From positions 1-64,000 of the forward strand of contig NZ_JAUYNV010000052.1 of the NCBI RefSeq assembly GCF_030698125.1: a DNA stretch of 64,000 nt, written 5' to 3'. How positions within the stretch are numbered: position 1 is the stretch's first letter; each line of letters starts with the position of its first letter. The notes under the pieces were generated by a model. The model saw only the letters and a list, made by a program, of their open reading frames with translations, made no database searches and was not told where the DNA came from. This document shows positions 902 to 13,546 of this stretch, in pieces. The translations under genes and the position numbers were made by a program. The DNA comes from Methyloversatilis sp. (GTDB lineage: Bacteria; Pseudomonadota; Gammaproteobacteria; Burkholderiales; Rhodocyclaceae).

Positions 902-951
902 ACAGATGTCGCAGTTTTTCTGCCTCGGCCAAGACATCTGTCGCATGTCTC
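902..951 (+). promoter_or_regulatory. Candidate AcoR upstream activator site for the porin / PQQ-dehydrogenase genes
   Basis: A perfect 9-bp inverted repeat, ACAGATGTC (902-910) and GACATCTGT (933-941), carries two direct copies of TGTCGCA (907-913 and 939-945) 32 bp apart, followed by TGTCTC (946-951). The same TGTCGCA and TGTCTC words occur upstream of acoX. The site lies 60-110 bp before a -24/-12 promoter, the usual distance for an enhancer-binding protein. Assignment to AcoR is inference. Confidence 0.5.
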
Positions 952-1008
952 TGCGGGCGAATCTCAGAGGTCGGGAAAAATACCCAGTCAATTCAATGCT
1001 GTGAGAGT

Positions 1009-1024
1009 TGGCATGGATTCTGCC
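1009..1024 (+). promoter_or_regulatory. Sigma-54 (-24/-12) promoter of the porin gene
   Basis: TGGCATG-GATT-CTGCC matches the RpoN consensus TGGCACG-N4-TTGCW, with GG at 1010-1011 and GC at 1022-1023, the required 12-bp register. Transcription would start near 1035, leaving a leader of about 70 nt before the porin start codon at 1107. Confidence 0.7.
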
Positions 1025-1106
1025 CTTGTGTTCTCCGACGAAGGTGTCGCCGAAAGCGGCGCCGCGTCGAAGCTCGAAGTTTCGACATCAACAATCGGAG
1101 GGGAGT

Positions 1107-2288
1107 ATGAAAAAGAAGATCTCTGGCGCGTCGGCGCAGGGCGGACGCAACGCATGCACGCTGGCAGCGGCAGTCGCTGCGGCAATGATGATGGTTCCCG
1201 GTGCGGCGCAAGCCGACATCGTGATCGGTGAAGTGGCCGGTACGAAGCTGTCGATGTTCGGCATCATCGACGTTGGCCTGCTGTACAACAGCAAGGCCAA
1301 CGCCAGCGGCGACAGCAGGACTTCGATGGAAACCAGCGGTCTGCGTCAGACCGTGATCGGTTTCAAGGGCGAGCGCGAACTGCAGCCGAATCTCACCGCG
1401 TTCTTCAACCTCGAATCGCACTTCGATACCAACGACGGTTTCCTGCACGGCACGGGTGATGCGCCGCGCGGCGGTACGAACAACACGCCGTTGTTCCGGC
1501 GTCAGGCGAATCTGGGTGTGCGCGGCGACTGGGGTAGCGTGACGGTCGGCCGTCAGTACGGCCCGGCACTGCTGGCCCACATCGGTACCGAACCGCGTGC
1601 CTTCAAGGAGCAGTTCTCCAACCTGTATGCGTGGGCCTATGGCCAATTGTTCACGACCGCCAATGCACCGGGCGGCGACCGCAACACGAACAACGATGTG
1701 GGTATTTTCTTCAGCAATGCTGTGCAGTACAGACATACTGTCGGCCCGGTGAATTTCGGTGTGCTGTACGCGTTCGGCGGTCAGCCGGGTTCGGCCAAGG
1801 ACAACAGCTCGTACGCCCTGGGCGCAACCTACAACGGCCCGATCACGCTGTCCGCGTCCTACCAGGCGATGAATGACGAACAGACCGGTCGCAGCAACAT
1901 CGAGCACACCTCGCTCGGTTTCGCGATTCCGTTCGGCGACTTCATCTGGAAGAACAACTGGATGAACGCCAAGAACGACGCGCGCACCGGCGCCGAACTG
2001 GCCGACATCAATGGTTTCGGCACGGGTCTGGACTGGAAGTGGCACGCCAAGAACTCGGCTACGGTGGCGTACTACATCAACAAGGACGACAGGAACAAGA
2101 CCGACGAAACGAAGTTTCTGGTCATCAGCAATGACTACCAGTGGCGGCCGGACACCACGCTGTACGTGCAGTTCGCTTACGCCGATGCCGATGCAGGCGC
2201 GACGCTGCGCACCAGCATCGTCGCCGCAGGCGTGACCGCCGGCGAGAAGAGCACGCTGCTCAACGTCGGCCTGAATTTCATGTTCTGA
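1107..2288 (+). CDS. Outer-membrane porin (betaproteobacterial general porin family)
   Basis: Trimeric beta-barrel porin of 393 residues, normal for the family. The N-terminus is a cleavable signal peptide (MKKK, hydrophobic A/V-rich core, cleavage near A-Q-A-D), followed by alternating beta-strand sequence with the typical G-x-x-D-V-G-L first strand and a terminal aromatic (L-N-F-M-F) needed for barrel insertion. I chose the ATG at 1107 because a strong GGAGGGGA ribosome site lies 3-11 nt upstream; an in-frame ATG at 1008 falls inside the sigma-54 promoter and cannot be used from it. The PQQ dehydrogenase gene follows 69 bp later on the same strand, so the porin probably admits the alcohol substrate. 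Substrate specificity cannot be read from sequence. Confidence 0.92.
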   Translation: MKKKISGASAQGGRNACTLAAAVAAAMMMVPGAAQADIVIGEVAGTKLSMFGIIDVGLLYNSKANASGDSRTSMETSGLRQTVIGFKGERELQPNLTAFFNLESHFDTNDGFLHGTGDAPRGGTNNTPLFRRQANLGVRGDWGSVTVGRQYGPALLAHIGTEPRAFKEQFSNLYAWAYGQLFTTANAPGGDRNTNNDVGIFFSNAVQYRHTVGPVNFGVLYAFGGQPGSAKDNSSYALGATYNGPITLSASYQAMNDEQTGRSNIEHTSLGFAIPFGDFIWKNNWMNAKNDARTGAELADINGFGTGLDWKWHAKNSATVAYYINKDDRNKTDETKFLVISNDYQWRPDTTLYVQFAYADADAGATLRTSIVAAGVTAGEKSTLLNVGLNFMF

Positions 2289-2357
2289 AGCAACGCGACT
2301 GTCTGAACACCCGGGGCCGAACCCGGGTGACTGAACCCAGTGAATGGAGATTGATAG

Positions 2358-4040
2358 ATGACCGCCTCACGCAAGATGTTCCGCCTGTCTGCTGCCCTTC
2401 TGGCAGGCTCGGCGCTGTCCTTTCTGACCGCGGCACCTGCCATGGCGCAGGGCAAGGCCGGTTTTGAAGACCCGAACAACTGGCCGGAATATCACCGCAC
2501 CAGCAATGCCTGGCGCTTCAGCCCGCTGAACCAGATCACGCGCGATAACGTGAAGAAGCTGAAGGTCGCCTGGATCCACCAGCCGGGCAACATCACGCAC
2601 GGCCTGCAGTCGACGCCCATCGTCATCGATGGCGTGATGTATACGATTTCGGCCAACAACAACGTCTGGGCGATCGATGCCGCCACCGGCAAGACGCTGT
2701 GGAACTACGCGCCGAAGCTCGACAAGATCGTCGAACAGGTGTTCTACGGTGCAGCCAGCCGCGGCGTGACCGTTGGCCGCGGCAAGGTGTTTGTGGGTAC
2801 GCTGGACGGCCGCTTCATCGCGCTCGACCAGAAGACCGGCAAGGAACTGTGGTCGACACAGCTCACCGCGCCGAAGACGCAGTACGGCGCATTGTTCTCC
2901 GCCCCGCCGCAACTGGCCGGCAACATCCTGTTCGGCGGTACGACCGGTGGCGATCAGCCGATCTCGGGCAAGATCTACGCGGTCAATGCCGACACCGGCA
3001 AGCCGGCGTGGACCTTTGACGTCATCAAGAACGATCCGAAGAGCTGGCCGGGCGACAGCGGCAAGGTCGGTGGCGGCAGCGCATGGATGCCGGGTACCTA
3101 CGACGCGAAGACCGACACCATCTACATCGGTACGTCGAACGCAGCCCCCGACTACTACAACTACGACCGCAAGGGCGACAACCTCTATACGGCTTCGCTG
3201 CTCGCGATCGAAGGCAAGACCGGCAAGCTGAAGTGGCACCGTCAGGAAGTCCCGAACGACTCGTGGGACTACGACTCGGCGTACGAAGCGCTGATCGTGC
3301 AGAAGGACGGCAAGGACGTCATCGTCCACCTGAACAAGGGTGGCTTCGTGTTCGTCATGGACAAGAAGGACGGCGCGCTCGAAAACGTATGGCAGTTCTC
3401 CGAGAACGTGAACTGGGTCAAGGGCATCAACCCGAAGACCGGTGCGCTGATCGATCCGGTCTACCCGGAAGTCGACAAGGTCAAGACCTTCTGTCCGAAC
3501 CTGCTCGGTGCGCGCAGCTGGAATCACGGCGCCTACAACCCGGGTACCGGCCTGTGGTATTCGCACGCGATGGAGGTCTGCAACGAAGTGGTGGCCGGCA
3601 AGGATGATCCGGACAACCTGAAAGCGGTCTCGGCGCTGTCGCTGGGCATCGAGTCGATCAAGCTGGTACCGCCGCCCAGCGGCAAACCGCATGGCCGCCT
3701 GGACGCACGTGATCCGCTGACCGGCAAGCTCAAGTGGTCGATCAAGTACGACCTGCCGCCGCTGTCTTCGGTACTCACCACGGCAGGCGGACTGGTGTTC
3801 ACCGGCGATATGGAAGGCAAGATACTCGGCTACGACGCTGAAACCGGCAAGGAACTGTGGTCCTTCAATTCGGGCTCAGGCCTGCGTGGCGGACCGGTCA
3901 GCTACTCGGTAAAGGGCAAGCAGTACATCGTGTTCCCGACCGGTCTGGGCTCGCACGCTCCGGGCTTCCTGGCAGGTGCATTCCCGCAGATCAAGGATCT
4001 GCCGGGCGGCGCTGCAATCATCGCTTTCACGTTGGAGTAG
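2358..4040 (+). CDS. PQQ-dependent alcohol dehydrogenase (methanol/ethanol family, periplasmic)
   Basis: Periplasmic quinoprotein oxidising an alcohol and passing electrons to a cytochrome c. It has 560 residues with a signal peptide (cleavage near A-M-A-Q, residue 30) and repeated tryptophan-docking motifs of the eight-bladed propeller (A-x-D-x-x-T-G-K-x-x-W, six clear copies). The catalytic segment is W-D-Y-D-S (D304, D306); the second Asp is the residue associated with lanthanide-dependent enzymes of this family. Three features depart from methanol dehydrogenases: the vicinal disulfide A-C-C-D segment is replaced by Q-V-F-Y-G-A-A-S-R-G (127-136), the usual metal-ligand Glu aligns with D199, and the cluster lacks mxa/xox partners. 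The pair of Cys corresponding to the second disulfide (T-F-C-P and E-V-C-N) is kept. The start has GGAGA at a 7-nt spacing. Substrate unknown; 2,3-butanediol or ethanol would fit the acetoin context. Confidence 0.9.
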   Translation: MTASRKMFRLSAALLAGSALSFLTAAPAMAQGKAGFEDPNNWPEYHRTSNAWRFSPLNQITRDNVKKLKVAWIHQPGNITHGLQSTPIVIDGVMYTISANNNVWAIDAATGKTLWNYAPKLDKIVEQVFYGAASRGVTVGRGKVFVGTLDGRFIALDQKTGKELWSTQLTAPKTQYGALFSAPPQLAGNILFGGTTGGDQPISGKIYAVNADTGKPAWTFDVIKNDPKSWPGDSGKVGGGSAWMPGTYDAKTDTIYIGTSNAAPDYYNYDRKGDNLYTASLLAIEGKTGKLKWHRQEVPNDSWDYDSAYEALIVQKDGKDVIVHLNKGGFVFVMDKKDGALENVWQFSENVNWVKGINPKTGALIDPVYPEVDKVKTFCPNLLGARSWNHGAYNPGTGLWYSHAMEVCNEVVAGKDDPDNLKAVSALSLGIESIKLVPPPSGKPHGRLDARDPLTGKLKWSIKYDLPPLSSVLTTAGGLVFTGDMEGKILGYDAETGKELWSFNSGSGLRGGPVSYSVKGKQYIVFPTGLGSHAPGFLAGAFPQIKDLPGGAAIIAFTLE

Positions 4041-4052
4041 CAACGTTGGAAC

Positions 4053-4078
4053 CCCCGGCGCGTGGCTCCGCGCCGGGG
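4053..4078 (+). terminator. Hairpin after the PQQ dehydrogenase gene
   Basis: Perfect 10-bp stem, CCCCGGCGCG (4053-4062) with CGCGCCGGGG (4069-4078), 6-nt loop. No T tract follows directly; a run of nine T lies about 45 bp further on. It may partly attenuate transcription into the cytochrome gene or protect the upstream mRNA. Confidence 0.5.
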
Positions 4079-4232
4079 TGGCATGTCTCCTCATTCACAG
4101 GCGGTTACTCATGTTGCTGCCTGTTTTTTTTTGGTTCATTCACACTGTTGCTGGGGTCTGCTGACATTTCATTCGGGTCGTGATGGAATGTCACGAGACC
4201 CTGATCCGGAAACCCGAACAGGACTTAAAGCA

Positions 4233-4628
4233 ATGACTCATGACACGCCACGCAGCAATCCTGCAGGCTGGCTGACCGCAAGCGCACTGGTGATTGCCTT
4301 CGGCATGATCTGGGCCGCGCCGTCGCCCGCCTCCACGACTGAAGCCGCCATCGTTGCACCATCCTTCGAGCTGACCGATCCGGATCGGATCGCCCTCGGC
4401 AAGAAGCGCTTCAACAAGACCTGCGCAGGCTACTGCCATGGTTCGGATGGTGTCGGCGGGCGCGCCCCCGATTTCAAGGGACGTACCGATCTGGCCGACG
4501 AAGAGGCTTACCGCACCATCTTCCACGGTCGTCGCACGTCGGACATCATGCCGCCCTGGGGCGAAGCATTCTCGCCCGATCAGATCTGGGAACTGGTGGC
4601 CTACATCAAGTTTCTCGGCACGCAGTAG
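4233..4628 (+). CDS. Small periplasmic cytochrome c with a CX3CH haem motif
   Basis: Monohaem class-I-like cytochrome c of 131 residues, the probable electron acceptor of the adjacent PQQ dehydrogenase. Residues 1-33 form a signal peptide. The haem-attachment motif is C64-A-G-Y-C68-H69, with three residues between the cysteines instead of two; the codons TGC GCA GGC TAC TGC CAT at 4422-4439 are unambiguous. The distal ligand is probably M106 in D-I-M-P-P-W-G. The C-terminal helix (W-E-L-V-A-Y-I-K-F-L-G) is standard for the fold. The ATG at 4233 was chosen because AGGA sits about 10 nt upstream and a signal peptide follows; longer in-frame starts add sequence unlike any leader. An inverted repeat TGACATT (4162-4168) / AATGTCA (4187-4193) lies just upstream. 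Confidence 0.88.
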   Translation: MTHDTPRSNPAGWLTASALVIAFGMIWAAPSPASTTEAAIVAPSFELTDPDRIALGKKRFNKTCAGYCHGSDGVGGRAPDFKGRTDLADEEAYRTIFHGRRTSDIMPPWGEAFSPDQIWELVAYIKFLGTQ

Positions 4629-4651
4629 AACGTGACCGGAAGGGCTGGCGT

Positions 4652-4687
4652 GTCCGGCCCGCAGCGTGAGGCGGCTGCGGGCCGGAC
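4652..4687. terminator. Bidirectional terminator between cytochrome c and acoR
   Basis: Perfect 14-bp stem, GTCCGGCCCGCAGC (4652-4665) with GCTGCGGGCCGGAC (4674-4687), loop of 8 nt, placed between the two convergent genes. Confidence 0.75.
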
Positions 4688-4696
4688 GCCGCCGGA

Positions 4697-6751
4697 TCAG
4701 CCCTGTTGTGCCGTCTGCTCGGCGCTGTCCAGGTAGTTGGGCGCCACGATGCGCAGACGCGCCATCTTGCGGTAGAAGGTGGCGCGCGACATGCCGAGCT
4801 GGCGCGCCGTCTCGGTCACCTTCCAGTGATTGCGCCGCAGCGCCTCGAGCATCTTCTGGCGCAATTGCAGACACACTTCACTCAATGGTTCGCCGCTGTC
4901 GTCTTCGCAGGAGGCGTCGTACGCGATGGTTGCCACGACCGGCTGCTGCTGGGGCGGAGGCGGCAGGGCCACGCGCGCCGGCTTGTTGCCGTCGCGCAGT
5001 TCGTGCGGGAAGTGTTCGAGCCGTACCAGCGGGCCTTCCGCAATGGCGCAGGCGTAGCGGATCGCATGCCGCAGCTGGCGGATGTTGCCGGGCCAGCTGT
5101 AGGCGAGCAGCACGTCCATCGTCTCCGCTTCGATCGACAGTCCGGTGCGTTCCATCGCGGTGCTTTCTTCCAGCATGACCTGTTCGACCAGCGACCGCTT
5201 GTCCTCGCGCTCGCGCAGCGGCGGCAGCGTGAACGAGGCGCCGTTGAGGCGGTAGAACAGGTCTTCGCGGAAGCGCCCTTCGCGCACCAGTTCCGGCAGG
5301 TCCTGGTGGGTGGCGCAGATCACGTGCAGGCGCACCGGCGTTGGCTGTTCGGCGCCGAGCGGCACCACTTCGCCTTCGGCCAGCACGCGCAGCAGCCGGC
5401 TCTGCAGCGACAGCGGCATGTCGCCGATTTCGTCGAGGAAGAGGGTGCCACCGTCGGACTGCAGTATCTTGCCCTTCGAACCCTTGTTGCGGGCACCCGT
5501 GAAGGCGCCGTCGCGGTAGCCGAACAGTTCGCTCTCGATCAGGCTTTCCGGAATCGCAGCGCAGTTGAGCGCCACGAACGGCTGTTTGGCCCGGTCGCTG
5601 AAATCGTGGATGCCGCGCGCGAACGCCTCCTTGCCGGTGCCGGTCTCGCCCAGCAGCATGACCGGAATGTCGCGGTTGGCAACGCGCACCGCGCAGCCCA
5701 CGTTGGCCTTCACGCGCGGGTCACCCAGCGCGAGGTGACGGAAGCCGCGCGGCGCCGTCAGGTCTTCCGCCTCGGCGACCGGCTTGGCGGCAATCTGCGG
5801 CAGCGTGCGGGCGTGCGGTGCGCGCAGCACGGCAAACAGTCGCTGGCCGGTGGCGAACATGCGCAGCGGAAACGGTGCGCCGGGGCTGGCGTGCGCGGCG
5901 GCCATGATGCCGTTGGCGGTGCACTCGAACAGGTCGTGCAGGTATTCGGCGCGGCGCCCGTTATGGTTGATCAGTTCGTGGCGGGCGCGCCGGTTGCCGC
6001 CGACGATGCGGCCGCTGTCGTCGAAGGCGATCAGGTAGTCGGTTTCGACCGGCAGAAATTCGGCGATCGGGCCGAGCTGCAGGATCCAGTGGTTGCGCAG
6101 GCTGTAGTGGGCGTAGGCGTCCTCGATCAGGCGCGCCTTGTCGATCACCATGCGGTAGATCAAAAGCTGGCTTTCGCGCTGTTCGGGCGAGTACAGGGCC
6201 GATGCATCGAGCACGGCGATCGGCTCGTCTTCAAGCCCGACGATGGGCACCGAGCTGCAGGTGAAGCTGATGTTGTGGGCGCGGAAGTGTTCGCCGCGAT
6301 GGACCAGCGTGGGCTGGCAGTCGATCAGGCTGGTGCCGACGCCACAGGTGCCTTCGTGTTCTTCCGCCCAGCAGGTGCCGTTGCGGAAGCCTTCGTCCTT
6401 CAGTTCGCGTTCGAGGTGCGGCACGGTGCGGAAATCGACCGTCACGCCCTGGGCGTCGGTCAGCAGTACACAGTAGTCCGCCAGCAGCACCTGATGGTGC
6501 AGGCGCTCGACGCCTTCACGCGCGATGCGCATGAAGGTTTCGAGCCGGTCGCGGTGCTCGCGCAGCTCGTAGGCGGTGACGACCTTTGGTGTCGTCGCCC
6601 GTCCGGGGTCGATCGAGTGCTTGTTCAGCGACCGGTGCCACGAGCGCTTCAGCCGGTCGTGTTCCGCATGAAGCGGAGCGGAGCGGCTGGGTGCTTCGAT
6701 GGCCTTGAGTACCCGGCCGACGTGTTCCGAGATCGTGTGTCCGCGGTCCAT
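4697..6751 (-). CDS. acoR: AcoR-type sigma-54-dependent transcriptional activator
   Basis: Enhancer-binding protein of 684 residues that activates RpoN promoters of acetoin catabolism. Order of domains: N-terminal GAF sensor (about 80-215), a PAS-like segment (230-300), AAA+ sigma-54 interaction domain (about 345-565) and a C-terminal Fis-type helix-turn-helix. Key motifs are Walker A G-E-T-G-T-G-K-E, the sigma-54 contact loop G-A-F-T-G-A, Walker B G-G-T-L-F-L-D-E, and the recognition helix region [14 protein letters not shown]. There is no receiver domain, so it responds to a small ligand rather than phosphorylation; acetoin is the known effector of AcoR relatives. The start has AGGAGA about 6 nt upstream. 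It is divergent from acoX and convergent with the cytochrome gene. Confidence 0.93.
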
Positions 6752-6884
6752 GTCCTTCTCCTCACGAATATATACCTCTATCGAAACACCGCGTGCGATG
6801 GGGCCTGCCGCGGCGTTTCACTTTTGTGACTTGAGGGTAAGCCCTGAACCGCCTGAAATCAACGCGACGAATGTCTCCGAAAAG

Positions 6885-6934
6885 TGAGACAGGTGTCTCA
6901 TCGTCCCGTTGTCGCAGAGGGCAGCGATGCGACA
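6885..6934 (+). promoter_or_regulatory. Candidate AcoR upstream activator site for the aco operon
   Basis: Two inverted repeats: TGAGACA-GG-TGTCTCA (6885-6900, perfect 7-bp arms) and TGTCGCA (6910-6916) / TGCGACA (6928-6934). A further TGTCTC lies at 6872-6877. The half-sites TGTCGCA and TGTCTC recur before the porin gene. The site is about 125-175 bp before the predicted aco transcription start, a typical enhancer position. Confidence 0.55.
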
Positions 6935-7031
6935 GGTGGGTGGCTGCGTGTTGCGTCGATGCGGACGAGGTGCCGAAGAGCGCTTAAGAATCATCCGCTT
7001 GTCGGCTCCGGCGAGTCTGCCGGGACGCTGC

Positions 7032-7047
7032 TGGCACGGCCGATGCA
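7032..7047 (+). promoter_or_regulatory. Sigma-54 (-24/-12) promoter of the aco operon
   Basis: TGGCACG-GCCG-ATGCA differs from the RpoN consensus TGGCACG-N4-TTGCW at one position; GG (7033-7034) and GC (7045-7046) are in the required register. The transcript should start near 7058, which rules out the ATG at 7048 as the acoX start. Confidence 0.85.
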
Positions 7048-7083
7048 ATGACACCGGTAACCAACACCTGGAGTCGCATCGCC

Positions 7084-8127
7084 GTGCTGTCCGTCCCACC
7101 CCGTCCCGCCCTCGTCGGCATCATCGCGAATCCCGCATCGGGCCGGGACATCCGCCGCCTGACTTCGCGGGCGTCGGTGTTTCCGAACGCCGAGAAGGCC
7201 AGCATGATGGTGCGGGCGATCGCCGGGCTGGAAGCGGCCGGCGTGCGCGATGTCATGATCATGCCGGACTCGGGCGGCATCTGCGGCCCGCTGTTCCGAG
7301 CGCTGTCGGTGACCACCGGCTCCCCGGTCACCGTGAAGCCGCGCTTCATCGACATGCCGGTGACCGGCTCGGCCGACGACACGCTGCGGGCGACCGAGCT
7401 CATGTGTCAGGCCGGTGCCGGCGCGATCATCGTGCTCGGCGGTGACGGCACGCATCGCGCCGTGGCGGCGCGCTGCGGCCAGGTGCCGCTGCTTGCGCTG
7501 TCCACCGGCACCAACAACGCCTTTCCCGAAATGCGCGAAGCCACGGTCGCCGGACTGGCGGCCGGCCTGCTGGCCACCGGCGCCGTGCCGGCGGAGGTCG
7601 CCGTACGGCGCAACAAGCTGCTGCGCGTGCGTTGCGATGACCGCACGGACATCGCCCTGGTCGATCTGTGCGTCACGCGCCACAACTACGTCGGCTCGCG
7701 CGCCGTGTGGGACAGCGCGCTGCTGGAAGAACTGTTCGTCGCCTTCGCCGGGGCCGATGCGATCGGTCTGTCGGCGATCGCCGGCCAGCTCGAACCGGTC
7801 ACCCGCAGCGCGCCGCACGGCCTGCATGTGCGCTGCGCCGACACGACGCATACGCCGCAGCAGGTGATCGTGCCGATTGCCCCGGGGTTGATCAGCGCAG
7901 TCGGCATCCGCGACTACGCCCGCCTGCTGCCCGGGCAGCCGGTCGAGCTCGCGCCGCAGAGCGGCACCATCGCGCTCGATGGCGAGCGCGAAATCGAATT
8001 CGATCCGTCGAACCGGATCAGCGTCGAACTCGACCTGCACGGCCCGCTGACCATCGATGTCGCCGCGGTACTCGAAAACGCAGCGCGCCGGCGCGTGCTG
8101 CGCCACTACGCAGGGTGCCCGGCATGA
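7084..8127 (+). CDS. acoX: AcoX, ATP-NAD kinase-like protein of acetoin catabolism
   Basis: First gene of the aco operon; AcoX belongs to the NAD/diacylglycerol-kinase superfamily and is regularly co-transcribed with acetoin dehydrogenase, but its exact reaction is not established. It shows G-I-I-A-N-P-A-S-G-R-D-I-R-R-L at the N-terminus, the kinase-like I-I-V-L-G-G-D-G-T-H-R motif and S-T-G-T-N-N-A-F-P, all diagnostic. I start it at GTG 7084 (347 residues): GGAG lies at 7070-7073, and the in-frame ATG at 7048 is upstream of the transcription start predicted from the sigma-54 promoter and lacks a ribosome site. The start is therefore somewhat uncertain. Confidence 0.88.
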   Translation: MLSVPPRPALVGIIANPASGRDIRRLTSRASVFPNAEKASMMVRAIAGLEAAGVRDVMIMPDSGGICGPLFRALSVTTGSPVTVKPRFIDMPVTGSADDTLRATELMCQAGAGAIIVLGGDGTHRAVAARCGQVPLLALSTGTNNAFPEMREATVAGLAAGLLATGAVPAEVAVRRNKLLRVRCDDRTDIALVDLCVTRHNYVGSRAVWDSALLEELFVAFAGADAIGLSAIAGQLEPVTRSAPHGLHVRCADTTHTPQQVIVPIAPGLISAVGIRDYARLLPGQPVELAPQSGTIALDGEREIEFDPSNRISVELDLHGPLTIDVAAVLENAARRRVLRHYAGCPA

Positions 8128-8273
8128 GCCGCGTGCGCACCCTGTCCCGTCTCTCCCCGGAGGTGCCGGCGCCTGCCGCCAGCGCCTTCGTGCCCGGTTC
8201 GTCCGGCCAACCGCCCGCAGCTGCCGGAGATCAGCGGGCTTGTCATTCCATCCACAACGAGGAGCACCCATGA
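8124..8273 (+). CDS. Possible 49-residue coupled ORF between acoX and acoA
   Basis: The 142-bp gap between acoX and acoA is exactly spanned by an open frame whose ATGA overlaps the acoX stop and whose stop TGA overlaps the acoA start (again ATGA). The product, beginning M-S-R-V-R-T-L-S-R-L, is Pro/Ala-rich with no recognisable domain or signal. There is no good ribosome site, so it may only serve to couple translation of acoX and acoA, or be chance in high-G+C sequence. Confidence 0.3.
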   Translation: MSRVRTLSRLSPEVPAPAASAFVPGSSGQPPAAAGDQRACHSIHNEEHP

Positions 8274-9244
8274 GCAGTTCATTGACCAGGGAAGGCCTGC
8301 TGCAGGCCTACCGGACCATGCGCACGATCCGGGAATTCGAGGAACGTCTGCACGTCGATTTCGCCACTGGCGAAATCCCCGGCTTCGTCCACCTGTATGC
8401 CGGTGAGGAAGCGTCGGCAACCGGCATCTGCATGCACCTGAACCGCGACGACTACATCGCCAGTACCCACCGTGGCCACGGCCACTGCATCGCCAAGGGC
8501 GTCGATCCGGTCGGCATGATGGCCGAGATCTGGGGCAAACGCACCGGCACCTGCAAGGGCAAGGGCGGCTCGATGCACATCGCTGATCTTGACGTCGGCA
8601 TGCTGGGTGCCAATGGCATCGTCGGCGGTGGCGGCCCGCTGATCTGCGGTACCGCGCTGGCGTCCAAGCTGCGCGGCAGCAACAACGTCGGCGTGTGCTT
8701 CTTCGGTGATGGCGCGTCCAACCAGGGCACGATTTTCGAGGCCATGAATCTGGCAGCCGTGTGGAAGTTGCCGGTCATCTTCGTCGGCGAGAACAACGGC
8801 TATGCCGAAGCGACCGCCAGCAAATTCTCGGTCGCCTGCGAAAACATTGCAGACCGCGCCTCAGCCTTCGGAATGCCGGGCGTCATCACCGACGGTTTCG
8901 ATTTCTTCGCCGTGCATGAAGCGGCCGGCGAAGCGGTCAAGCGTGCCCGTGAAGGCGGCGGACCGACGCTGCTCGAAGTGAAGCTGTCGCGCTACTACGG
9001 CCACTTCGAAGGCGACCAGCAGACCTACCGCGCACCGGGCGAAGTGCAGAAGCTGCGCGAAACCAAGGACTGCCTGATGCAGTTCGCACGTCGCGTGACG
9101 TCCCGCGGCGAACTGTCGATGGCCGAGCTCGAAGCCATTGATGTCGAAGTGAAGACCCTGATCGACGCATCGGTGGTGAAGGCCAAGGCAGATCCGCTGC
9201 CCTTGCCCGAAGACCTGATGGCAGACGTCTACGTCTCTTACTGA
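8270..9244 (+). CDS. acoA: Acetoin dehydrogenase E1 component, alpha subunit
   Basis: TPP-dependent E1 alpha subunit of the acetoin dehydrogenase complex, which cleaves acetoin to acetaldehyde and a hydroxyethyl-TPP intermediate passed to lipoate, giving acetyl-CoA. The protein has 324 residues, the family length. It carries the TPP/Mg motif G-D-G-A-S-N-Q-G with E-N-N-G-Y-A downstream, and the E1-alpha signatures H-R-G-H-G-H-C-I-A-K-G and G-K-G-G-S-M-H. The ATG at 8270 has GAGGAG about 6 nt upstream; longer frames extend into non-homologous sequence. acoB follows after 33 bp. Confidence 0.95.
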   Translation: MSSSLTREGLLQAYRTMRTIREFEERLHVDFATGEIPGFVHLYAGEEASATGICMHLNRDDYIASTHRGHGHCIAKGVDPVGMMAEIWGKRTGTCKGKGGSMHIADLDVGMLGANGIVGGGGPLICGTALASKLRGSNNVGVCFFGDGASNQGTIFEAMNLAAVWKLPVIFVGENNGYAEATASKFSVACENIADRASAFGMPGVITDGFDFFAVHEAAGEAVKRAREGGGPTLLEVKLSRYYGHFEGDQQTYRAPGEVQKLRETKDCLMQFARRVTSRGELSMAELEAIDVEVKTLIDASVVKAKADPLPLPEDLMADVYVSY

Positions 9245-9277
9245 ACCTACGCCACACGCTGACAGGAGAAATATCAG

Positions 9278-10288
9278 ATGGCACGAAAGATCACTTACCA
9301 GCAAGCCATCAACGAGGCGCTGGATCAGGAAATGGCACGCGACCCGAGCGTCATCGTCATGGGCGAAGACGTGGCCGGCGGCGCCGGCGCACCGGGCGAG
9401 GAAGACTCGTGGGGCGGCGTGCTCGGCGTCACGAAGGGGCTGTACGCCAAGCATCCGGGACGCGTGCTCGACACGCCGATCTCGGAATCCGGTTACATCG
9501 GTGCCGCGGTCGGCGCAGCCTGCAACGGCATGCGTCCGGTGGCAGAACTGATGTTCATCGATTTCATGGGCGTCTGCTTCGACCAGATCTTCAACCAGGC
9601 GGCCAAGTTCCGCTACATGTTCGGTGGCAAGGCGAAGACGCCGGTGGTCATCCGTGCGATGTACGGTGCAGGTTTTCGCGCCGCCGCGCAGCACTCGCAG
9701 TGCCTTTACAACATCTTCACCCACATCCCCGGGCTGAAGGTGGTGCTGCCGTCGAACCCGTATGACGCGAAGGGCCTGCTGATCCAGTCCATCCGCGACA
9801 ACGACCCGGTGATCTTCCTCGAACACAAGGCCCTCTACACGATGGAAGGCGATGTGCCGGAAGAAAGCTACATCGTGCCGTTCGGCGAAGCCGCCGTGGT
9901 GCAGGAAGGGGACGACGTGACCATCGTGGCATTCGGCCGCATGGTCAATTACGCCAAGGATGCGGGTGCCAGCCTGCGCAAGAAGGGCGTCCAGTGCGAA
10001 ATCATCGATCCGCGCACGACCTCGCCGATGGACTTCGACACCATTCTGGAAAGCGTCGAGCGTACCGGCCGCCTGGTCATCGTCGATGAATCGCACCCGC
10101 GCTGCAGCATGGCGTCCGACGTGTCGGGCTTCATCGCGCAGGAAGCGTTCCGCGCCCTCAAGGCACCGATCCAGATGGTGACCGCACCGCACGTACCCGT
10201 GCCCTTCGCAGCGTCGCTCGAAGACCTCTACATTCCCAGTCCGGCGCGCATCGAAGAAGCCGTGATGCGCGTCAAGGAGTATCGCTGA
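9278..10288 (+). CDS. acoB: Acetoin dehydrogenase E1 component, beta subunit
   Basis: Beta subunit of the acetoin dehydrogenase E1 (336 residues), forming an alpha2-beta2 tetramer with AcoA and completing the TPP site. Family signatures include the N-terminal A-I-N-E-A-L-D-Q-E-M, M-G-E-D-V-A, D-T-P-I-S-E-S-G-Y-I-G-A-A-V-G and, in the C-terminal transketolase half, I-D-P-R-T-T-S-P-M-D and V-I-V-D-E-S-H-P-R. An AGGAGA ribosome site precedes the ATG. The stop codon overlaps the acoC start by one base, indicating coupled translation. Confidence 0.95.
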   Translation: MARKITYQQAINEALDQEMARDPSVIVMGEDVAGGAGAPGEEDSWGGVLGVTKGLYAKHPGRVLDTPISESGYIGAAVGAACNGMRPVAELMFIDFMGVCFDQIFNQAAKFRYMFGGKAKTPVVIRAMYGAGFRAAAQHSQCLYNIFTHIPGLKVVLPSNPYDAKGLLIQSIRDNDPVIFLEHKALYTMEGDVPEESYIVPFGEAAVVQEGDDVTIVAFGRMVNYAKDAGASLRKKGVQCEIIDPRTTSPMDFDTILESVERTGRLVIVDESHPRCSMASDVSGFIAQEAFRALKAPIQMVTAPHVPVPFAASLEDLYIPSPARIEEAVMRVKEYR

Positions 10289-11397
10289 TGTCCTCGATTC
10301 TTACCGTCACCATGCCCAAGTGGGGCTTGTCCATGCAGGAGGGCAAGGTCAACCTGTGGCTGAAGGAAGTCGGTGACACGATCGCTCCGGGCGAGGAAAT
10401 CGTCGAAGTCGAGAGCGAGAAGATTTCCGGCGCCGTTGAAGCGGCGGTGTCCGGCACGCTGCGTCGGCAGATCGCACAGCCCGACGAAGTGCTGCCGGTT
10501 GGCGCCCTGCTCGGCGTGATTGCCGACGCTGACGTGTCGGATGAACTGATCGATGATCTGGTCACCCGCTTCCAGGCGGAATTCGTGCCGCCGACCGACG
10601 ACGAGGCCGACGCCGGACCGCAGACGCAGACCGTGCAGGTCAATGGCCGGCAGCTGCGCTATCTGAAGCGCGGTGAAGGCGGCACGCCGCTGCTGCTGAT
10701 CCACGGCTTCGGTGGCGATCTGAACAACTGGCTGTTCAACCACGAAGCGCTGGCCGCTTCGCGCGCCGTCTATGCGATCGACCTGCCGGGTCACGGCGCA
10801 TCGACCAAGGTCACGGGTGCCGCGTCGCTCGACGATCTGGCCGATGCGGTGAGCGGGTTCATGGACGCGGTCGGCATCGCATCCGCCGACGTCGTCGGCC
10901 ACTCGATGGGTGGCGGCGTGTGTCTGGCGCTGACGCGCCGTGCGCCGCAGAAGGTCAGGTCACTGACGCTGATCGCGAGTGCCGGACTGGGCAGCGACAT
11001 CAACGGTGCCTACATCGACGGCTTCGTCGCCGGCAACACGCGCAATGCACTCAAGCCGCTGCTCGCCCAGCTCTTTTCGGACGCCGGTCTGGTCACGCGT
11101 CAGCTGATCGACGACATGCTCAAGTTCAAGCGGCTGGAAGGTGTCGACGCGGCGCTGGCGACGCTGGCCGGCGGGCTGTTCCCCGGTGGCCGGCAGTCGG
11201 AGGTGCTCGCCGATATCGCAGCTAAAAGCGGCAAGCCGGTGCTGGTGATCTGGGGCGAGAACGACCAGATCATTCCGGTTGCGCATGCTTCGGCCATCCC
11301 GGCGGCCAGGGTAGTGGTGCTGCCGGCACAGGGCCACATGGTGCAGATGGAATCGGCCAGTGAAGTGAACAAGCTGATCGGCGAGTTCACAAGCTGA
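10288..11397 (+). CDS. acoC: Acetoin dehydrogenase E2 component (lipoyl domain plus alpha/beta-hydrolase)
   Basis: Dihydrolipoamide acetyltransferase of the acetoin dehydrogenase complex, 369 residues. Residues 1-80 are a biotinyl/lipoyl domain with the lipoylated lysine K45 in V-E-S-E-K-I-S-G. Residues from about 118 on are an alpha/beta-hydrolase fold with the nucleophile elbow G-H-S206-M-G-G-G and a C-terminal histidine in A-Q-G-H-M. This hydrolase-type E2, without the classical chloramphenicol-acetyltransferase-like domain, is characteristic of AcoC in Gram-negative acetoin systems. No dihydrolipoamide dehydrogenase (acoL) follows, so E3 must come from elsewhere in the genome. Confidence 0.94.
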
Positions 11398-11518: not shown

Positions 11519-12469
11519 ATGAATACAGCAGTCATGGGGGAAGGACTGCGCGGACGCGACAAGCTGGCGCGCATTCCGGTCAAGGTGCGCGAAGACGTGG
11601 CGTCGCCGGCGAAACCTGCCTGGCTGCGCGGCCGCGACCAGGACACGCCGGCGGTGCGCGCGCTGCAGGGCGTGCTGCGCGACCACGCACTGCATACGGT
11701 ATGCGAGGAAGCGGCCTGCCCGAACATCGGCGAATGCTTCGGCCGCGGCACCGCAACCTTCATGATCCTCGGGGCGATCTGCACGCGCCGCTGCCCGTTC
11801 TGCGATGTGTCGCACGGCCGGCCGCTGCCGCCCGACGCCGACGAGCCGCAACGTCTTGCAGACACCGTAGCGGCGATGAAGCTGCGCTATGTGGTCATCA
11901 CCTCGGTCGACCGCGACGACCTGCGCGACGGCGGCGCGGCGCACTTTGCGCAGTGCATGGCCGACATCCGCGCGGCGTCGCCCGACATCACGATCGAGGT
12001 GCTGACACCGGATTTCCGCGGCCGTGAAGCGGCCGCACTCGACGCGCTGGCGGTGTCGCCGCCGGACGTGTTCAACCACAACATGGAAACTGTGCCGCGC
12101 CTGTACCGCGAGGTCAGGCCCGGTGCGAACTACGAAGGCTCGTTGAAGCTGATCCGCGATTTCGGCGCGCGCTTCCCCGGTGTGCCGACCAAGACCGGCC
12201 TGATGCTGGGCCTCGGCGAAACCGAAGACGAAGTGGTCGAGGTGATGCGTGACCTGCGCGCCCACGGCTGCGACCTGCTGACGCTGGGTCAGTACCTGCG
12301 GCCGTCGCCGGCTCACCTGCCGGTGATCGAGTACATCACGCCGGCACGCTTCGACGCACTGCGCGACAAGGCGCTCGAACTGGGCTTCAGCGAGGTGGCG
12401 GCCGGCCCGCTGGTGCGCTCGTCCTACCGCGCCGACGTACTGCATCAGGCGCATGCCGATCATGACTGA
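11519..12469 (+). CDS. lipA: Lipoyl synthase (radical SAM)
   Basis: Inserts two sulfur atoms into the octanoyl chain on lipoyl domains, here plausibly that of AcoC. The protein has 316 residues and both iron-sulfur clusters: the radical-SAM C88-x3-C92-x2-C95 (C-T-R-R-C-P-F-C) and the auxiliary cluster C62-x4-C67-x5-C73 ([12 protein letters not shown]). The C-terminal R-S-S-Y motif (V-R-S-S-Y-R-A) completes the family pattern. The ATG at 11519 has AAGGA about 7 nt upstream. thiS overlaps its end. Its place in the aco locus suggests a pathway-dedicated copy beside a housekeeping lipA elsewhere; that second copy is inference. Confidence 0.94.
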
Positions 12470-12680
12470 CCCGCGCCCTTCGCTGGTCACCGTCAATGGA
12501 CAGATCGAGCGGCTGGACGCCGTGATGTCGGTCGGCGGCCTGCTCGACGGCAAGGCCTTGCGCACCCGTCGTATCGCCGTCGAGCGCAATGGCGAAATCG
12601 TGCCGCGCAGCGCCTTCGACTGCACCTGGCTCAATCACGGTGACCGCGTGGAAATCGTCGTCGCAGTCGGAGGAGGTTGA
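12462..12680 (+). CDS. thiS: Sulfur-carrier protein ThiS
   Basis: Ubiquitin-like sulfur carrier for the thiamine thiazole ring; the C-terminal glycine is thiocarboxylated. About 72 residues, ending V-A-V-G-G-G, with the beta-grasp pattern V-T-V-N-G and [10 protein letters not shown] and the H-G-D-R-V-E-I-V motif. It overlaps the lipA 3' end; ATG 12453 is an alternative start 9 nt earlier. The thiG start follows immediately. Confidence 0.9.
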
Positions 12681-12681
12681 T

Positions 12682-13503
12682 GTGCATGCACCTTTGAGCC
12701 CCTGTCTGAGCGACCCGCTGGTCATCGGCGGAGAAACTTTCGAATCGCGCCTGCTGGTGGGCACCGGCAAGTATCGCGACCTCGCGGAAACCGCGCGTGC
12801 GCTCGATGCCAGTGCGGCCGAAATCGTCACCGTGGCCATTCGCCGGGTGCCGCTGACGACTCGCGATGGCGCCCCCGGGCTGCTTGACGCGCTGCCGGTC
12901 GGTCGCTACACGCTGCTGCCCAATTCTGCCGGCTGCTATACGGCTGACGACGCGGTGCGCACGCTGCGGCTCGCGCGCGAGCTGCTCGACGGCCACGATC
13001 TGGTGAAGCTCGAAGTGCTGGGCGACGCGAAGACGCTGTTTCCCGACATGCCGGAAACGCTGCGCGCGGCCGAGGTGCTGATCCGCGACGGCTTTCGCGT
13101 GATGGTCTATTGCTCGGACGACCCGATACAGGCGCGCGTGCTCGAAAGCATGGGCTGCGTGGCGGTGATGCCGCTGGCCAGCCTGATCGGTTCGGGCATG
13201 GGCATCCTGAATCCGTGGAACCTGAAAATCATCATCGCCGAGGCTGGCGTGCCGGTCATCGTCGATGCCGGCATCGGCACCGCGTCGGATGCGGCCGTGG
13301 CGATGGAACTCGGTTGTGACGGCGTGCTGATGAATACCGCGATTGCGCATGCGCGCGATCCGGTGCTGATGGCCAGCGCCATGCGCCACGCCGTCGCGGC
13401 CGGTCGCCAGGCGTTTCTGGCCGGGCGCATGGACGCGGTGCCGTATCGCGCCGTGGCGTCGTCGCCGCAGGTCGGATTGATCACCCAGATGCAAGAGATG
13501 TAA
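12682..13503 (+). CDS. thiG: Thiazole synthase ThiG
   Basis: Condenses deoxyxylulose-5-phosphate, dehydroglycine and ThiS-thiocarboxylate into the thiazole phosphate of thiamine. 273 residues forming a TIM barrel. Recognisable motifs are [33 protein letters not shown] and the phosphate-binding [13 protein letters not shown]. The start is a GTG with AGGAGG (12671-12676) at a 5-nt spacing; no ATG is available in frame nearby. Together with thiS it would raise TPP supply when the TPP-dependent AcoAB enzyme is induced. Confidence 0.94.
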
Positions 13504-13546
13504 GTACAGCAGGAAGCACCCACTACAAAAACAGGGAGGAATGCAG

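Follow-up and report, generated by a model that had tools for sequence, protein, structure and literature searches.

An AcoR-type activator appears to switch on both a pyrroloquinoline quinone dehydrogenase and acetoin-breakdown genes in a group of betaproteobacteria

The acetoin operons of Cupriavidus necator and Pseudomonas are AcoR/sigma-54 systems, in which acoR lies beside acoXABC and encodes an activator with a Fis-type helix-turn-helix (HTH). In C. necator a sigma-54 box presumably precedes acoX. A locus of the same build, likewise with a box before acoX, occupies part of a 64,000-nucleotide stretch of Methyloversatilis sp. DNA (contig NZ_JAUYNV010000052.1, positions 1 to 64,000; hereafter the window), but here candidate activator palindromes also precede an operon for a porin, a pyrroloquinoline quinone (PQQ)-dependent dehydrogenase (PQQ1) and a cytochrome c, as well as a second PQQ dehydrogenase (PQQ2). 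A single activator thus appears to switch on PQQ1 and acetoin-breakdown genes in a group of betaproteobacteria, judging from their promoter DNA.

Two other described systems lie close to this arrangement. Pseudomonas putida has the gene neighbourhood acoR-acoX-aco, and its PQQ dehydrogenases PedE and PedH oxidise (2S,3S)-2,3-butanediol to acetoin, which then passes to the acetoin dehydrogenase system (PMC8427195; here and below, statements on published work draw on parts of the sources cited). Both enzymes are periplasmic and share their cluster with a porin, PP_2662 (PMC8427195, PMC12997753). For the ped genes, those parts of the two papers give the PedS2/R2 lanthanide switch and AgmR, and do not name AcoR. 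In Thauera butanivorans, a related bacterium, BmoR is an alcohol-responsive sigma-54 activator with a distant inverted repeat at its target promoter Pbmo (PMC8899819, PMC8784404); what it controls is an alkane monooxygenase. Among the matches listed in a search of open-access literature, no AcoR regulon with a PQQ dehydrogenase appeared, though one may have been described elsewhere. Each of the two parts, AcoR regulon and PQQ dehydrogenase, is known already; their union through shared conserved sites did not appear among those matches.

Both gene sets are headed by a sigma-54 −24/−12 box whose GG and GC doublets stand in register: TGGCATGGATTCTGC before the porin (1009–1023, plus strand) and TGGCACGGCCGATGC before acoX (7032–7046, plus strand), each a conserved island among relatives. 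Upstream of each, the words TGTCGCA and TGTCTC prove to be half-sites; the full element is a 16-bp palindrome, TGAGACA-N2-TGTCTCA or a variant of it, present twice per promoter and assigned no strand. At the porin–PQQ1 promoter, the distal candidate CGATACAGATGTCGCA (898–913) lies 111 bp and the proximal candidate CAAGACATCTGTCGCA (930–945) 79 bp upstream of −24, with 32 bp from one to the other. At the aco promoter, a weaker distal candidate CGCGACGAATGTCTCC (6863–6878) lies 22 bp from a perfect proximal one, TGAGACAGGTGTCTCA (6885–6900), 147 bp upstream of −24. A further conserved island, AATCATCCGCTTG (6989–7001, plus strand), stands between the aco activator sites and −24; it is of AATCAT type and, one mismatch from what we take to be the consensus, resembles a site for integration host factor (IHF). 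On the minus strand between the gene sets, acoR (4697–6751) encodes an AAA+ domain with a GAFTGA loop and a Fis-type HTH, the features of an AcoR-type enhancer-binding protein. The two in-register boxes, the repeated words upstream of both and the intervening acoR had all been claimed in the earlier note, and all are in place.

Such words could be common ones of a GC-rich genome, lying by chance beside unrelated promoters, and counts inside the window are indeed not significant. The pattern TGGCAYGNNNNNTGC matches twice in 64 kb, at the two boxes (0.96 expected; 21 of 100 shuffles gave at least two), and a loose palindrome pattern five times (2.23 expected; at least five in 9 of 100 shuffles), two of these five being one palindrome read on both strands. 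Across the 4.2-Mb genome, GMGACANNTGTCKC with at most one mismatch occurs at 46 sites, and a reversed control pattern at 35. The only exact GMGACANNTGTCKC site of the assembly is at 6886, in the aco proximal palindrome, and the two intergenic regions, 802 bp in all, hold 4 of the 46 near-matches where 0.009 would be expected; this enrichment is no independent test, as these sites had themselves helped to define the motif. As the motif had been chosen in part from the window, we turned to matrices trained elsewhere. One, built from 15 sites at aco promoters of other genera, gave 6885 (25.8 bits), 930 (13.6 bits) and 898 (11.4 bits) as its three best sites in 64 kb; to one decimal, 898 ties with position 467, which falls within the thiC-like frame. 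A second, from 35 sites at PQQ1-type operon promoters of other genera, put 6885, 898, 930 and 6863 in its top four places.

Conservation was scored over 37 loci, with L041, L044 and L045 (56% and 31% identity) left out of the PQQ1 clade and L025, L029 and L040 unscored for the PQQ1 promoter because their upstream DNA is cut. A pair counted if the sigma-54 word kept GG and GC with a match in 9 or more of 11 letters, the palindrome had at most two mismatches and the spacing was 40–260 bp; these criteria were set after the sites had been viewed, so the background of 107 pairs in 20,000 random 420-bp segments (0.5%) is a yardstick and not a test. Every one of 29 PQQ1 promoters, the window's and those of 28 loci, has the box with a palindrome upstream, as do three of three further ones (L036–L038), making 32 of 32; the two porin promoters that lead into a second PQQ gene (L036, L037) have the pair too. 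Of the divergent aco operons, 17 of 19 carry the pair, as expected of an AcoR-type activator. Several Methyloversatilis loci are nearly identical and the rows are non-independent. When six diverged Methyloversatilis-type loci are aligned, palindromes and boxes stay invariant and the space between them has largely diverged, the further invariant islands being the porin ribosome-binding region and aco 6989–7001. The weight of the sites is in their position and conservation rather than in window counts. On the out-of-sample ranks, on 32/32 and 17/19 promoters against a 0.5% background and on these footprint-like islands, we reject chance, which we consider extremely improbable.

The check proposed in the earlier note, a search of relatives, thus finds the motifs conserved: Methyloversatilis, Zoogloea, Aromatoleum and an Azoarcus metagenome-assembled genome (MAG) have them before each of the two gene sets. 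Comparison, through site conservation and out-of-sample ranks, gives good support to the note's reading of one regulon. AcoR with sigma-54 RNA polymerase probably activates at least three transcription units: porin–PQQ1–cytochrome c; acoXABC, possibly together with lipA and thiG; and PQQ2 with its MoxJ-like and cytochrome c neighbours. Conserved sites and promoter architecture suggest that AcoR would bind and act at paired 16-bp palindromes of the TGAGACA-N2-TGTCTCA type, some 70–170 bp upstream of −24/−12. More distant homologues of PQQ1 (L197–L199 and L041, 54–56% identical) were considered as members and set aside; they lack adjoining aco genes, and close to their PQQ gene no palindrome paired with a sigma-54 box turned up, which limits the module to a clade of 64–100% identity.

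The third unit lies on another contig of the same genome (C26, L073), where PQQ2, a MoxJ-like protein and a c-type cytochrome span 6607–9659. Its upstream region (6373–6546) holds palindromes TGAGACACCTGTAGCC and TGAGACGTTCGTCTCA, 25 bp apart, and a sigma-54 box TGGCATGGATGATGC; the two sites rank first and second of 12 kb under both matrices. PQQ2 scores 549.8 bits against TIGR03075, above the cut-off, and has CC and WDYD. Its order, dehydrogenase then MoxJ-like protein and c-type cytochrome, is that of XoxF/MoxJ/MoxG clusters, but the matches to the MoxJ and MoxG models are below cut-offs and the cluster carries AcoR-type palindromes. Palindrome and box recur at the best match in all 11 Methyloversatilis genomes that hold PQQ2 (11 of 13 searched), one of them (L140) with a single palindrome. 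In a single-contig relative, G005, the PQQ2 cluster, thiC, porin–PQQ1 and the aco operon sit within about 18 kb. A second PQQ dehydrogenase, out of sight in the window, thus seems to belong to the regulon.

Linkage and co-occurrence tie PQQ1 to the aco genes. The order thiC, porin, PQQ1, cytochrome, acoR, acoXABC, lipA, thiG recurs in Methyloversatilis, and in Zoogloea the same thiC-to-thiG order is found with additions or cut by contig ends. PQQ1, cytochrome, acoR and acoABC-lipA-thiG recur in Aromatoleum and the Azoarcus MAG, loci that have no match to the window porin or acoX. Among 297 genomes of the family, PQQ1 occurs in 44 and acoC above its cut-off in 34, with both in 30 (Fisher p ~3e-26); by genus (68) the figures are 11, 10 and 8 (p ~9e-7), and in both tests the genomes are related. 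G152, of the same genus as the window, has neither. The earlier note had called the arrangement uncommon, a description that needs qualifying: within the family, PQQ1 accompanies 30 of the 34 acoC genomes.

The PQQ1 genomes that lack acoC above the cut-off have in part a different partner. Surroundings are known, from contig coordinates, for six: G104 (locus L037), which holds acoR, acoX and an acoA cut short by the contig end, and L018, L027, L028, L042 and L043. These last five, and the Thauera locus L034 (whose genome's acoC content is outside the comparison), carry beside PQQ1 a divergent gene pair 44–49% identical to acoA/acoB. In all six loci the space shared with PQQ1 holds a separate sigma-54 box for this pair and one or more TGCGACA-type palindromes, and the best AcoR-like protein of these genomes is only 43–45% identical to AcoR. 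In L028 (2060–8087) the E1 pair is followed by an E2-catalytic-only protein, an LplA-like (lipoate-ligase-like) protein, a Tat-signal protein and a GMC oxidoreductase; operons of this type are possibly an unrecognised ketol or 2-oxoacid dehydrogenase complex. Outside the family, the 1.5-Mb genome G589 (L196) has acoA-acoX, a PQQ2 cluster, a thiG-like frame and PQQ1 within 12 kb.

Several observations weigh against a single AcoR regulon. Fourteen of the 44 PQQ1 genomes lack acoC above the cut-off. The aco promoters of L037 and L040 have no palindrome within two mismatches, and for L031 and L032 the pair appeared only once the stretch before PQQ1 was widened past its first 900 bp (these regions exceed 2 kb, others being roughly 300–715 bp and background segments 420 bp). 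Second PQQ2 copies, 75–76% identical, have no site in place (L145) or one with two mismatches (L146), and the G589 sites are weak, with two mismatches and none found before PQQ2. Three near-matches outside the regulon (C15:71152, C39:22473 and C44:25617) sit 40–260 bp upstream of a right-oriented sigma-54-like word, so the palindrome scan yields false positives; C39:22473, which precedes a flgB-like frame and looks like a flagellar promoter, was set aside as one. PQQ1 and the cytochrome are separated by 192 bp with a GC-rich hairpin, which makes a single transcript uncertain. In the BmoR system activation stayed wild-type-like with the inverted repeat deleted (PMC8899819), so the palindromes need not be essential. 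Finally, the window porin sites have two mismatches each to the consensus, and their half-sites are TGTCGCA, those of aco mainly TGTCTCA; binding may be of unequal strength, or the porin promoter may answer to a paralogous activator.

The last possibility amounts to two activators, AcoR for aco alone and a paralogue with a near-identical recognition sequence for porin–PQQ1, the TGTCGCA sites being its mark. In loci of the Denitromonas/Thauera/Cognatazoarcus type, TGCGACA palindromes do accompany the 43–45%-identical AcoR-like protein, and the window genome has paralogues, 39 and 40% identical over most of their length (contigs C17 and C11), its other AcoR-like matches being 31–33% identical or mainly a shared AAA+ domain. 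But Zoogloea has TGAGACA-type sites at both promoters, the porin sites of three Methyloversatilis loci (L012, L013 and L014) are hybrids, GAGACA-N2-TGTCGC, and the window's porin sites were found by a matrix from aco promoters alone. The AcoR recognition helix is nearly unchanged in relatives with TGAGACA-type sites, whereas the paralogues differ in its core (SRATFY in AcoR, SRNTIY on C17, SRTTLY on C11), and the C11 paralogue adjoins other PQQ dehydrogenases. We consider two activators unlikely. A common AcoR also agrees with three Zoogloea-type loci (L021, L022, L024), in which the orthologue, 63–64% identical, is on another contig and both sites are still there at the PQQ1 promoter, which is what a regulator acting in trans would lead one to expect.

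PQQ1 (2358–4040, plus strand) looks like a lanthanide-type, PedH-like enzyme. Its AlphaFold model (mean predicted local distance difference test score, pLDDT, 76.8; predicted template modelling score, pTM, 0.82) has PedH as its top Foldseek match (6zcw; template modelling score 0.83, 32% identity in the structural alignment), and the Pfam PQQ propeller scores 275.4 bits. Positions D304, W243 and N261, which we take to be the catalytic Asp, the PQQ-stacking Trp and the metal-ligand Asn, are invariant over 27 rows. An extra Asp two residues past the catalytic Asp is the lanthanide signature; PQQ1 rows read WD[YF]D, and D306 is invariant. A vicinal Cys-Cys beside PQQ marks the methanol/ethanol family. 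PQQ1 has Phe-Tyr at residues 129–130 in its place, and scores 435.6 bits against TIGR03075, below the 480.05 cut-off; the orthologue rows read Phe-Tyr as well, none having the Cys pair (L040 starts after the site), and so do L195 and L196. PQQ1 also shows GGDQP where solved relatives have a GGAE-type stretch, presumably a metal ligand. Compared with PedH, itself lanthanide-dependent (PMC8427195, PMC12997753), PQQ1 is of lanthanide type by motif, 32% identical and without the vicinal disulfide.

The adjoining c-type cytochrome (4233–4628, plus strand) has a CX3CH haem motif, CAGYCH. All 37 BLAST matches above 50% identity share CX3CH (CAGYCH or CAAYCH) in place of the usual CXXCH, and in many relatives a canonical CXXCH cytochrome (CVSCH, CVACH or CVTCH) adjoins it.

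From the protein families, their context and known biochemistry we infer a pathway. An alcohol would enter through the porin and be oxidised in the periplasm by the lanthanide-type PQQ dehydrogenase, with electrons passing to the CX3CH cytochrome; the ketol product would reach the cytoplasm, where AcoABC would split it into acetaldehyde and acetyl-CoA. The most likely substrate is a stereoisomer of 2,3-butanediol, giving acetoin, an assignment in which our confidence is a little below even. The short-chain dehydrogenase/reductase (SDR) at 13541 does not reach the cut-off of either acetoin reductase or meso-butanediol dehydrogenase, and no search of the genome was aimed at a butanediol dehydrogenase like PP0552 of P. 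putida.

The same regulon might instead serve general alcohol and aldehyde oxidation (ethanol, C2–C6), acetoin cleavage being one outlet and 2,3-butanediol not the main substrate. The exaC gene of Ralstonia solanacearum is a predicted target of an AcoR homologue, and growth of this species on ethanol needs rpoN1 (PMC4676750); BmoR responds to C2–C8 alcohols (PMC8784404), the substrates of PedE and PedH are broad (PMC8427195), and PQQ2 is a second dehydrogenase with such sites. Against this, PQQ1 is repeatedly paired with AcoABC or the other E1 pair, and the acetoin genes of M. universalis FAM5 stay silent with methanol or methylamine as substrate (PMC5023235), so that growth on one-carbon (C1) compounds does not induce them, which fits a specific inducer. 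General oxidation has an appreciable chance of being right, though well short of even. In the reading that spans the envelope and keeps 2,3-butanediol, AcoR of the Rhodocyclaceae would control entry through the outer membrane, lanthanide-dependent 2,3-butanediol oxidation in the periplasm by a separate PQQ dehydrogenase clade devoid of the vicinal disulfide, CX3CH electron delivery, cytoplasmic acetoin cleavage, lipoate and thiazole genes and a second, XoxF-like dehydrogenase, and relatives without AcoC would have rebuilt the module with another E1 operon and another AcoR-like activator; we put this forward tentatively, as a picture more doubtful than assured.

The window itself belongs to a 4.2-Mb genome whose PQQ1 is 96–98% identical to the closest named loci, of Methyloversatilis. 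A minus-strand thiC-like frame is followed on the plus strand by the outer-membrane porin (Porin_4, 1107–2288; PF13609, 7e-40), PQQ1 (from 2358) and the cytochrome (from 4233). Beyond acoR lie, all on the plus strand, acoX (7084–8127), the E1 alpha gene acoA (8270–9244; matches to pyruvate dehydrogenase-type models below cut-off), the E1 beta gene acoB (9278–10288; NF006667 above cut-off), the acetoin dehydrogenase E2 gene acoC (10288–11397; NF011457, 495 bits, cut-off 307), the lipoyl synthase gene lipA 3' of acoC (11519–12469) and, 3' of lipA, a thiG-like frame (12589–13503), read from the sequence with no curated model above cut-off, and the SDR. An AcoC equivalog behind tandem E1 alpha and beta genes identifies an acetoin dehydrogenase operon, with which lipA and thiG are perhaps co-transcribed; the names thiC, thiG and flgB come from sequence reading. 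The acoX frame is open from ATG 7048, but transcription is predicted to begin only at ~7058, which makes GTG 7084, preceded by GGAG, the probable true start.

Among the other elements, the hairpin between PQQ1 and the cytochrome (4050–4080; CCCCGGCGCG ... CGCGCCGGGG) has a T-run about 40 bases on and was not called by the terminator scan; it could split the two transcripts. That scan gave three terminators (shuffle mean 5.4), none useful. A sigma-70 promoter scan found none, and Rfam gave no match at gathering scores in the first 15 kb. The window's own genome has rpoN (449.3 bits, cut-off 277.35) and pqqB.

The comparison gives a testable regulon and a DNA motif for an AcoR-type activator, and suggests a role for a clade of lanthanide-type PQQ dehydrogenases. 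This clade is without the vicinal disulfide and has a CX3CH partner, and the role of the disulfide in quinoprotein electron transfer becomes directly testable in it. If the regulon is as proposed, rare-earth-dependent periplasmic oxidation would be tied to the use of acetoin and 2,3-butanediol, outside C1 metabolism.

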